Source: a virus. From it: a stretch of DNA of 64,000 nt. Under the pieces are notes generated by a model. The model was given only the letters and a program-made list of their open reading frames with translations. It was not told the DNA's origin and did not search any database. Location: IMG/VR virus record IMGVR_UViG_3300042344_000236, positions 1-64,000 of that record, one strand, 5' to 3'. This document shows, one piece after another, positions 9,738 to 24,171 of the stretch (position 1 is its first letter; each line of letters begins with the position of its first letter). Both the position numbers and the translations under genes were made by a program.

Positions 9738-9757
9738 GTTGTATAAATTAAGGTTAG

Positions 9758-9831
<74 letters not shown>

Positions 9832-18639: not shown

Positions 18640-18819
18640 TTAAATATTAGACTTTTTGATTAAAATTCCGCCTCCTACGATGCCAGCGAATAGTACATAC
18701 ACTACCACCATTGCGTGACCTTTGGTGTCCATTAGGAATCCCGTTACGCTAGATACAACAGGCAATACTATTCCGATTGTTGTCATTGCCATTCCGATTA
18801 AAAAAATTACTGCTTTCAT
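18640..18819 (-). CDS. Small two-segment membrane protein
   Basis: A 59-residue ORF, MKAVIFLIGMAMTTIGIVLP..., with hydrophobic segments at about 3-28 and 36-54. It is preceded by the block's CCAAATAATC leader. Probably an inner-membrane early protein. Confidence 0.65.
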   Translation of the reverse strand: MKAVIFLIGMAMTTIGIVLPVVSSVTGFLMDTKGHAMVVVYVLFAGIVGGGILIKKSNI

Positions 18820-18846
18820 GATTATTTGGTTTTATTGGTTACTTAA

Positions 18847-18957
18847 TTAACGATGCGAAAATGGGATGCGTACACGTTGTGTTCGGATTAGCACTCCATT
18901 GTTGAAGAATCCCCATACCTCGAAGACTCCATCAATTTTGATGATTTTACTTGACAT
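18847..18957 (-). CDS. Very small early protein
   Basis: A 36-residue ORF (MSSKIIKIDGVFEVWGFFNN...), the most promoter-proximal coding candidate of the leftward block, starting 25 nt after the last helix of the structured region. The leader AACCAATAAATCAAATGTAAT resembles those of its neighbours. Tentative because of its length. Confidence 0.5.
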   Translation of the reverse strand: MSSKIIKIDGVFEVWGFFNNGVLIRTQRVRIPFSHR

Positions 18958-18981
18958 ATTACATTTGATTTATTGGTTAGT

Positions 18982-19590
18982 GGTGCATTCGGTATCGCTC
19001 CGATAAACTAGTCATTCTAGATGCACCTATTGTTTTTGCATGCCACGTGAAACTGCATGCTCTCTTCTTTATCCCTATGCTATGCATGGTGTTGACATCA
19101 TCCACCTGAGTAGTGTAATGATTGTCGTAGCTTGGAGGAGTCTTTATACTTACCCCGTACTACCCTAGGTCTGACCTACCCCGTTGATGTTTATTGTCTT
19201 ACCAATATGTCAAAGAACGTCCCATCTCACATGTATGACTGAACTACTTTAAACCATCTGACCTTGTGTTGACCTCCGAAGAGCACCCTGTCATACTTTA
19301 TCGTTTCGTTCACCTGTAGCATACTGATTCGTCATCGTAACATCTAGAGGCTTGTCAAGTTTTCGATTGACGGATAAGCTAAGCGTTTCAGTCTATGTAG
19401 CTCGCTTATCGCAGTCATGTTCTTTCTCAGTAGGTCTCTCCTAAGCTCTTATTACTTTCATCTAGTCTCTGTCGCAATGACTGCTAGAACTAAGAGTCGT
19501 AATTGAGTCCCCCATGTGTGTCGCTTGTCAATCGTTGTTAGCTCGTTTGCTTGTTGTAAAGATAATGCGGAAAAGAGGTAAGTAGCACAC
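18982..19590 (-). ncRNA. Candidate large structured RNA (or very long structured 5' leader)
   Basis: About 600 bp without ORFs but full of nested complementary segments. Examples are GGTGCAT/ATGCACC (18982-18988, 19021-19027) enclosing two hairpins (TATCG-CTC-CGATA, CTAG-tcatt-CTAG); GCATGC repeats (19038-19043, 19055-19060); GTATGAC/GTCATAC (19233-19239, 19290-19296) enclosing a minus-strand C(UUCG)G tetraloop at 19274-19283; and CGATTGAC/GTCAATCG (19364-19371, 19527-19534) enclosing GATAAGC/GCTTATC (19373-19379, 19404-19410) directly abutting GCAGTCAT/ATGACTGC (19411-19418, 19477-19484). Unpaired parts are purine-rich on the minus strand, so the RNA probably runs leftward. Composition is less AT-rich than flanking genes. 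Whether it belongs to GOLLD, ROOL, HEARO or a new class cannot be told by eye. Confidence 0.6.
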
Positions 19591-19613
19591 TTTTTTCGTA
19601 GTTAGATTGCAAA

Positions 19614-19679
19614 TTACGTAGAACTACGTAGAAAGATCTACGTATAACTACGTAGTGCCATCTACGTATAACTACGTAG
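19614..19679. repeat. Array of six TACGTA palindromes (24-bp unit), probable operator or iterons
   Basis: TACGTA occurs at 19615, 19625, 19639, 19649, 19663 and 19673, with spacings 10, 14, 10, 14, 10. The array is three pairs of palindromes: one helical turn within a pair and a 24-bp repeat between pairs, with spacers GAAC, TAAC, TAAC. It lies between the leftward early block and the rightward late block, next to the presumed leftward transcription start. A cooperative protein-binding site (replication initiator or transcription regulator) is the best reading. Confidence 0.8.
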
Positions 19680-20132
19680 TTGACGGGTTATGTTCACGGG
19701 CATTTCGCTCTGAAACGTAAGCTAGGTAAGGCTTTCAGGATATTACATAATATTGGGTGTAAAAATGTAACTATCTTGGGAATTGGAATAGGTGTTGCCC
19801 TCCCTCTACAGGGATGCCAACAGGTACGCCAACACGCCAACCAACCAACAGCAAATGTTAACGAATGTTAATTCTATTTAACATAATGCAAATTATATAA
19901 CAGGCCTACCGACCGACCGACCGACAGGCCGAACGTCCGACAGGAAAGAATGTGTATGTATGTACATAAGTATTGTAACATATTGATGGGCATCACCATG
20001 CCAAATGGCATACAGGCAAAAAGCCAAAAAATCCGACTGAAAATCTGGAAATCAAGACCCCACCCATAAATTTCAAACGGTTTTCCGATCGGCCTGGCTC
20101 GCGTCAATCCCCCCTATTACCCAAAAATTCTG
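19680..20132. other. Divergent non-coding region, candidate origin/control region
   Basis: No ATG-started gene was found; a 63-codon frame at 19680 starts with TTG and is not supported. The stretch holds GCCAAC-type repeats (19818-19850), AATGTTAA repeats with an ATGTTAA/TTAACAT hairpin (19865-19884), four tandem CCGA units followed by an AGGCC repeat (about 19901-19930), TGCCAAATGGCA (19999-20010), and clusters of C (20107-20115). GC content is visibly above the flanking genes. Density of repeats suggests an origin or regulatory hub. Confidence 0.55.
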
Positions 20133-20140
20133 TATATTTG
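20133..20140 (+). promoter_or_regulatory. Promoter -7 box TATATTTG
   Basis: Matches the Bacteroidota TAnnTTTG element, 13 nt before the ATG at 20154. It is the first box of the rightward block. No clear -33 TTG. Confidence 0.65.
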
Positions 20141-20153
20141 ACAAAAAAAAGAA

Positions 20154-20300
20154 ATGGCAAGAGCTAAGAAGAAGCACCCAAAACCTAGGAGCAAAAGATC
20201 AATCAATAGGCTTTTGAAGATGATTAGTATTAATGACGAAAAAATAAAAGAGTATGCCAGTAGATACCAAGCCGAAGAGAAAGGTAGTAGAGAGGCTTGA
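20154..20300 (+). CDS. Small basic protein
   Basis: A 48-residue Lys/Arg-rich ORF, MARAKKKHPKPRSKRSINRL..., first gene of the rightward block behind a TATATTTG box. Its last 47 nt overlap the next gene in another frame. Probably nucleic-acid binding by composition; family not recognised. Confidence 0.6.
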   Translation: MARAKKKHPKPRSKRSINRLLKMISINDEKIKEYASRYQAEEKGSREA

Positions 20301-22367: not shown

Positions 22368-23930
22368 ATGATAGTAAAAGAGATTCATTTTGGCGATGAT
22401 GGCCAAAAAAAATTGAAATCTGGCATCAAAAAGATAGCTGGGGCAGTAAAAAGTACTCTAGGTGCTAGAGGTAGGACAGTATTAATAGAGTCTGAGAACC
22501 ATGTTGGTGGTATTACCGTAACAAAGGACGGTGTTACTGTAGCAAAGTCTATCAATTTGTATGATCCTACCGAGAACCTAGCCGTTATGATGATGAGACA
22601 GGCCGCTGACAAGACGGCAACTGTTGCTGGTGATGGTACAACGACATCAATTGTACTTGCAGAGGCAATTATTGACGCAGCTGACAAGTATTTAACACCT
22701 GAGCACAATGTAACTGAGGTGATACGTGGAATATCTGCGCTATCAAAGAAGGTTGTTGACAAGCTAGACAAGATGTCTAAGAAGGTTAACGGAAAGAGGC
22801 TTTACGATGTTGCGACAATATCAGCTAACAATGACAATGAGCTTGGCAAGATGATTGGAGATGCATTTTCTTGGGTGCCACTTGTTACTGTTGAGAACAG
22901 CATGAACTCTGAGACAAGGGTTGAGATAATAAATGGAATGAGAATCGAGAGGGGGTACACATCTCCATACTTTGTCACGGATCAAAAGAAGCAAGAGTGT
23001 GTCCTTGATAATCCGTATGTATTGATTTGTGATCACGAGATAAACAATATCTCCAATTTAGAGAAGGTGTTAGCACCAATCGTTTCTCAGGGTAAATCGT
23101 TACTAATCATTGGTAACTTAGGTCCAAACGCACTACAGACGTTAAACGTTAACGTGTACCAGGGCAAAATTAAGGCATGCAATATTATTCCTCCGTCATT
23201 TGGATACAGACAGAAAGACCTGTTAAAAGACTTAGCTGTAGCTCTTGGAGGCACATACTTTAGCGAGGACACTGGTGATGACCTATCAATAATAGGATTG
23301 TCTGACTTGGGCAAGGCATCAAAAATCATTGTTAAGAAAGACGTTACAGTGTTTATGCACCACGCAGACTTTAAGGATGACATTGACAAGCACATTGCTG
23401 ACCTTAAGGCAATGGTTGATCAGACAGACAACAAAGAAGAGAAAGACTTTATTAGAGAGAGGATAGCCAATATATCTGGCGGTGTTGGCGTTATATATGT
23501 AGGTGCACAGAGTGACATTGAGCAGAAGGAGAAGAGAGACAGGATTGATGACGCTGTGTACGCTGTTATGGCCGCACTTGAGGATGGTATTCTACCTGGT
23601 GGTGGTATTGCACTGTCTGAGTGTGCTGCAATGATTTACGATGAGTTTGATGTATCGGCAATGATTATGCATGACGCACTTCTAGCTCCATTTGATCAGA
23701 TACTCATTAACGCTGGCAAGAAGCCAACCGAGATAGCAATGGGTATATTTGATAAGGGATATGGATACGATGTAAAGGGTGAGCGTTTTGGTGACATGAT
23801 TAAGATGGGAATTATTGACCCGACTAAGGTTACTAAGAACGCACTACTAAACGCTGTATCTGTAGCAACAACTATTATGAGTACTAACGCAATTATAACA
23901 AACATTAGAGCAGATGAAAGTCCTAAATAA
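22368..23930 (+). CDS. groL: Chaperonin GroEL (Cpn60), phage-encoded
   Basis: A 520-residue group I chaperonin, alignable over its whole length. GARGRTVLI at 32-40, DGVTVAKSI at 54-62, the ATP-site GDGTTT at 88-93 with D89, and the equatorial ALEDGILPGGGIAL segment near 405 preceded by RIDDAV are all present. It is slightly shorter than the host type (about 548) and lacks the GGM-repeat tail, ending ITNIRADESPK. Phage GroELs are known and fold virion proteins. Here the next gene is a GroES, overlapping by 17 nt, so the order is EL-ES, opposite to bacterial operons. It has its own promoter and an upstream terminator. It could form a homo-ring for phage proteins or assemble with host subunits. 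Confidence 0.95.
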   Translation: MIVKEIHFGDDGQKKLKSGIKKIAGAVKSTLGARGRTVLIESENHVGGITVTKDGVTVAKSINLYDPTENLAVMMMRQAADKTATVAGDGTTTSIVLAEAIIDAADKYLTPEHNVTEVIRGISALSKKVVDKLDKMSKKVNGKRLYDVATISANNDNELGKMIGDAFSWVPLVTVENSMNSETRVEIINGMRIERGYTSPYFVTDQKKQECVLDNPYVLICDHEINNISNLEKVLAPIVSQGKSLLIIGNLGPNALQTLNVNVYQGKIKACNIIPPSFGYRQKDLLKDLAVALGGTYFSEDTGDDLSIIGLSDLGKASKIIVKKDVTVFMHHADFKDDIDKHIADLKAMVDQTDNKEEKDFIRERIANISGGVGVIYVGAQSDIEQKEKRDRIDDAVYAVMAALEDGILPGGGIALSECAAMIYDEFDVSAMIMHDALLAPFDQILINAGKKPTEIAMGIFDKGYGYDVKGERFGDMIKMGIIDPTKVTKNALLNAVSVATTIMSTNAIITNIRADESPK

Positions 23931-24171
23931 ATTTTTATTAATCGAGAAGATTGTAGAACAGAAGACTGCCAAGAGCGGTCTGATATTAAGTGGAGAGGAG
24001 TACCAGGACATGAGGTATCACTATGGAGTTGTTGTAGAGCCAGGAATAAACGTTGTTGGAATATCAATCGGTGATAAGATAATGTTCGATAAGGTTCACT
24101 CTTATGACGTTGTAATAGACAGCAACAGGTTTACTGTCCTTCAGGAGAAGGATGTTGTTTGCGTTCTTTAA
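23914..24171 (+). CDS. groS: Co-chaperonin GroES-like
   Basis: An 85-residue Cpn10-fold protein. A KFLLIEKI first strand is followed by a mobile loop carrying GLIL, the hydrophobic tripeptide that binds GroEL, then YGVVVEPG, IGDKIMF and a C-terminal FTVLQEKDVVCVL. The host version has about 95 residues. It starts 17 nt before the groEL stop, so the two are co-translated. Its 3' end overlaps the convergent minus-strand gene by 41 nt. Confidence 0.85.
   Translation: MKVLNKFLLIEKIVEQKTAKSGLILSGEEYQDMRYHYGVVVEPGINVVGISIGDKIMFDKVHSYDVVIDSNRFTVLQEKDVVCVL

Follow-up and report, generated by a model that had tools for sequence, protein, structure and literature searches.

What is specified by a stretch of about 600 bp in a phage genome that is overlapped by no open reading frame of at least 50 aa? 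The stretch, positions 18982-19590, belongs to a window of 64,000 nucleotides (the whole DNA analysed here, almost the entire length of a virus record of 64,228 bases) and was found to lie between a leftward operon, made up of small genes, and genes running rightward. Its longest open stretch is 46 aa, in agreement with an earlier note on this DNA, which had described the region as free of ORFs and folded into many nested helices and had suggested a large non-coding RNA or, at the head of the early transcript, a very long leader, possibly of a new class. The structural proteins of the phage were found to match phages of Flavobacterium, Cellulophaga, Maribacter and Tenacibaculum as well as the uncultured podovirus MW202828. 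The phage GroEL (520 aa), with the next ORF of 85 aa in the GroES position, was located at 22368-24171; an annotated pair is present in MW202828.

The modular leader and its predicted 5′ end

The minimum free energy of the minus strand was found to be -146.9 vs -145.3 +/- 7.5 for shuffled sequences (z -0.21) and the plus strand gave z +0.89, so that neither strand was unusual and nested helices alone would be no evidence of structure. The complementary words quoted in the earlier note do exist, but the fold they compose was not above chance by this measure, and the support for structure comes from covariation. The only Rfam match at the gathering score was a tRNA-Arg at 9758-9831, with nothing for the leader, and a permissive scan of 18800-20200 up to E = 10 gave weak unrelated matches only. 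The classes GOLLD, ROOL and HEARO and the group I and group II introns, proposed earlier for checking, were unmatched at the gathering score and up to E = 10, and so was OLE. The comparison with 50,697 phage records by blastn gave nothing, or a single short weak match (E = 0.6), and no report of the modules described below was found in the open-access literature searched, of which coverage was partial.

The phage GroEL protein was used as bait, and 79 related viral loci (L numbers below) were obtained. Similarity to these loci by blastn across the stretch was strong but broken, and five modules were resolved by iterated profile searches; extra loci came from scanning for patterns built on conserved words in A and B and on the T-arm-like module T. 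About 50 distinct loci were found to follow a fixed order, in which the promoter region E and a 5′ hairpin are followed by optional D and C modules, one of B, F, G or H, an optional T module, module A and the first ORF. B, F, G and H were mutually exclusive in the third slot and never occurred together in these loci. The domains were present or absent independently, as in L003 without D and C and L006 without C, and the domain sets span 260-800 nt across phages; a D fragment (positions 1-34) reported by the profile in some loci amounted to no more than the 5′ hairpin that E has as well. As judged from these alignments, the leader is not one nested fold but a mosaic, in which each domain has been gained or lost on its own. 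Inside the leaders of three loci (L016, L019 and L072), a second TAnnTTTG promoter was found, followed by another hairpin whose loop is of the AAACGA type, with the look of tandem units.

The promoter region of the window contains the element TATCTTTA at 19557-19564 on the minus strand, which deviates by one base from the TAnnTTTG type; the TAnnTTT[G/A] element is one that we take to be the Bacteroidota -7 promoter element. Of the 41 distinct leaders, 26 were found to have this element; its distance to the 5′ hairpin downstream is exactly 13 nt in 25 of them, window included, and 26 nt in L030. TTGACA-like words were often present further upstream in the leaders, and no clear -33 element was identified at the promoter of the window. 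The hairpin AGC-AAACGA-GCT at 19540-19551 (minus strand) follows. Its stem is AGC/GCT in 30 leaders, GGC/GCC in 10 and GGC/GCT in one, and its loop is AAACGA throughout the 41 leaders except for AATCGA in one. Since the -7 element stands 13 nt before the hairpin, an RNA of about 575 nt is predicted, starting at about 19551, running to 18976 and heading the leftward early operon.

Directly upstream of the promoter, six TACGTA palindromes at 19610-19684 (6 of the 12 in the window) form an array that may act as an operator, and similar arrays were found in relatives. Upstream of the early promoter, a minus-strand stem of 12 pairs at 19903-19930 resembles a terminator; it lies in a CCGA repeat. 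From the leader as far as position 2900, no terminator-like site was found on the minus strand.

Covarying modules and the first-gene boundary

Module A (18982-19027, minus strand) was found to be a three-way junction with a 7-bp P1 and a P3 loop that is mostly AGCGATA. Across 39 distinct homologues, counted with the relatedness of the sequences left in, 13 of its 15 pairs were double-changed and 99.7% of the cells were paired; the covariation score was reached by none of 500 shuffles, and slid versions scored far lower. Its P1 is the GGTGCAT/ATGCACC stem that the earlier note had picked out, and this stem held up well, with 99.3% of the cells paired and 6 of 7 pairs double-changed.

Module B (19036-19206, minus strand) was found in 21 distinct homologues with 24 of 36 pairs double-changed and 96.2% of the cells paired, and module C (19219-19354, minus strand) in 22 distinct homologues with 19 of 23 pairs double-changed and 90.1% of the cells paired, the relatedness of the sequences being left in here also. 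Both stand far above the shuffled and slid controls, the outer helix of C being less well supported. Module B contains several near-invariant U-G or G-U pairs, which fits an RNA read from the minus strand, since the complementary strand would have A-C mismatches in their place. Module D (19364-19534, minus strand), closed by CGATTGAC/GTCAATCG, has homologues in L006, L053 and L057, and shorter variants were found in L010, L014, L032, L052, L054, L079, L084, L088 and L095. The full-length copies are few and the covariation is slight; a resemblance to a group I intron, suggestive by eye, was unsupported by Rfam. The covariation above both controls in A, B and C, which the earlier note had named as the check in homologues, indicates that 18982-19590 is a structured RNA read from the minus strand.

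The individual helices highlighted earlier fared unequally, and two of the four were not conserved. GATAAGC/GCTTATC was broken at two pairs in L053 and L057, and most relatives were found to have a mismatch in GCAGTCAT/ATGACTGC, with which invariant alternative helices also compete. The CGATTGAC/GTCAATCG helix contained one compensatory pair among four full-length D modules but was absent in the other D types. The UUCG hairpin, which belongs to module C, kept a short stem with its basal C-G pair in 22 of 22 sequences, but not the 7-bp helix described.

Module A is followed on its 3′ side by a conserved ACTAACC (18975-18981, minus strand) and then, at a short and similar spacing among relatives, by a start codon. 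In the window this codon opens the ORF of 36 aa (18847-18957, minus strand) with which the early operon begins, and the DNA around that ORF is kept in relatives. The tRNA-Arg (tct) at 9757-9831, within the early operon, was found to have the same flank, CTAACC followed by a start codon. A hammerhead-core scan of the related loci gave 24 distinct type-I-like elements in 26 loci (L011, L012, L031, L042, L043, L046 and others), in the early operon on the minus strand, and none in the mononucleotide-shuffle control. A start codon was found 13-18 nt past the 3′ strand in each, and the 3′ strand is mostly TTAACC, most of the stems I being GGTTAA/TTAACC. Rfam gave no hammerhead at the gathering score in the 11 loci scanned; in L012, weak hammerhead matches below that score were found at two of three sites. 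A looser element before the second gene of L053 was seen by eye and stands outside the scan count.

Given the shared CTAACC flank and start-codon layout, module A, the tRNA and the hammerhead-like elements may play a similar role at gene boundaries. TAACC was also found 5′ of many other early start codons without such an element, and the motif may therefore be a general leader feature. Module A resembles the type I hammerheads of relatives in its place before a start codon, most of them with the 3′ flank UUAACC, but lacks the CUGANGA/GAAA core, and the core scan found none on the minus strand of the window, its early operon included. Likewise, it resembles a tRNA in its 7-bp stem, contiguous second arm and 7-nt loop followed by A-CUAACC as after the tRNA-Arg, whereas it has 46 nt, two arms only and the loop AGCGATA instead of TTCRANN; ARAGORN called only the tRNA-Arg (9757-9831).

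In other relatives, a module T was observed directly 5′ of A (L020, 2882-2927; L090, 8626-8669; others). It has a closing stem, variable among relatives, around a hairpin whose loop, GGTTCGATTCC, resembles that of a tRNA T arm; the window lacks this module. Inspection of MW202828 by eye suggested an A-like junction followed by ACTAACC (L101, from 14485); it was unmatched by the covariance model of A and was left uncounted. The same model gave no match in 296 Bacteroidota genomes, in a run made without a positive control.

The boxA element and its counterpart in host rRNA operons

Between modules B and C, the boxA element GTTCTTTGACAT was found at 19207-19218 on the minus strand, and identity with host spacers continues to about 19197. 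The 21 nt starting at 19218, GTTCTTTGACATATTGGTAAG, were found in two Bacteroidota MAG contigs directly upstream of 23S rRNA, both loci being rRNA operons. The 23S starts were aligned in 61 Bacteroidota genomes, with matches in 20, and the region upstream was scanned. The host loci with a placed 23S start were found to contain a site with at most two, mostly at most one, mismatches to GTTCTTTGACAT at 64-295 nt upstream; four loci, in which the 23S start word is absent, gave no result. A strict boxA-plus-23S pattern gave one match in 296 Bacteroidota genomes, probably because spacers and 23S starts vary. The common host variant is GTTCATTGACAT, and the phage leaders contain the same two forms.

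Either form of the 12-mer was found exactly in 19 of the 41 distinct leaders and with at most one mismatch in 26, compared with 1 of 820 shuffled leaders, and it is unpaired in the folded alignments. The boxA was retained beside B and H as alternative slot-3 modules, and G keeps 9 nt of it. It was weak or absent in F-type leaders (L030, L037), in D-type leaders (L010, L014, L032) and in L025 and L078, so that it is not indispensable to relatives that keep other modules. No boxA match was found in the early leader region of the cultured relative, Flavobacterium phage elemoA. This phage was observed to contain about 1.1 kb with tiny annotated ORFs only (L102, 19069-20173) and two TAnnTTTG-like sites, one of them followed by a hairpin; the region may be an unrelated analogue.

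The function of boxA in rRNA operons and in lambdoid phages is described (PMC5725501, PMC10250234). The leader resembles the rRNA-operon boxA, which acts with NusB-S10-SuhB, in the same 12 nt (21 nt in two host spacers) and in a promoter-proximal place ahead of a long operon, but here the boxA sits among 260-800 nt of swappable structured domains at the head of an early operon. Lambdoid nut sites, with boxA, boxB and the N protein, likewise place a boxA in a phage early leader. The present leader is far larger and matches the host rRNA boxA, and the likeness noted is in the boxA, no boxB-type hairpin or N protein having been noticed.

Candidate roles of the leader

We favour, at about even odds, a leader of the early operon that has swappable domains, ends in a three-way junction and would recruit the rRNA antitermination machinery of the host. 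This reading adds putative transcription, Nus-factor binding, antitermination and processing at A to the RNA structures, modular architecture, boxA identity and promoter-like placement established by the comparison of sequences. A 5′ leader RNA of about 575 nt would start on the minus strand at the Bacteroidota-type promoter with a small hairpin, fold into the separate domains D, C and B and present a boxA identical to that of host rRNA operons. The boxA would then bind the host NusB-S10 pair, through which an rRNA-type antitermination complex would be loaded onto RNA polymerase, and the polymerase would thereby escape Rho and transcribe about 16 kb of early genes. The Nus-factor and antitermination steps are suggested by the known role of boxA (PMC5725501, PMC10250234). 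The neighbouring domains could be accessory contacts swapped between phages, and the junction A could mark or make the boundary with the first mRNA, as the hammerhead-like ribozymes of relatives stand at a similar distance ahead of start codons. The boxA leaders known so far are short, and antitermination thus leaves the 260-800 nt of domains unexplained.

This size, together with a boxA dispensable in some relatives, makes trans-acting non-coding RNAs a serious rival, though one of clearly lower probability. In this view, the domains would be released from the mRNA by cleavage and would target the host, for example its ribosomes, Nus factors or defence systems. The boxA would serve as a bait or a processing landmark, and an arms race would lie behind the swapping of B, F, G and H. 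The mutual exclusion in slot 3, the tandem second promoters with AAACGA-type hairpins in three loci and the hammerhead-like elements of relatives, which could release RNAs, are in keeping with such a role, and large non-coding RNAs of phages have precedents in GOLLD and ROOL (PMC12286853). The leader shares size and phage setting with GOLLD, ROOL, HEARO and OLE but differs from them in having no Rfam match, in its modular mosaic, in its boxA and in directly heading an operon; it continues through module A into that operon with no terminator found, which speaks against free RNAs.

Regulation in cis, in which the leader would act on the translation or stability of the first early genes in the manner of a riboswitch or attenuator, appears unlikely. 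The short, similar spacing from A to the first start codon and the UAACC-N~16-AUG layout common to genes preceded by hammerheads and by the tRNA would suit it, but the first ORFs after A differ among relatives, which leaves no single regulated gene, and no riboswitch was matched in Rfam. A DNA-level element (an origin, packaging or control site) with palindromes that mimic RNA structure has very little probability, for although the TACGTA palindromes adjoin the promoter, covariation argues strongly against it for modules A-C, and the compensatory changes include G-U pairs that work only on the minus-strand RNA.

The suggestion of a large non-coding RNA or very long early leader, possibly of a new class, was thus borne out at the sequence level by the covariation, the promoter placement, the position at the head of the operon and the lack of an Rfam match. 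A more specific proposal is made tentatively, namely a new modular class of phage RNA with a fixed frame (from the 5′ AAACGA hairpin to A), alternative plug-in domains and a host-type rRNA boxA, in which A would be a new RNA-processing element replacing the hammerhead or tRNA at mRNA boundaries.

If the antitermination reading is true, Bacteroidota phages would use the host rRNA antitermination signal for their early genes, in parallel to lambda; no described case from this phylum was found in the literature searched. The swappable domains around boxA would provide a comparative set for finding the host factor of each domain, and the leader indicates that large structured phage RNAs can escape both folding-energy tests and Rfam.
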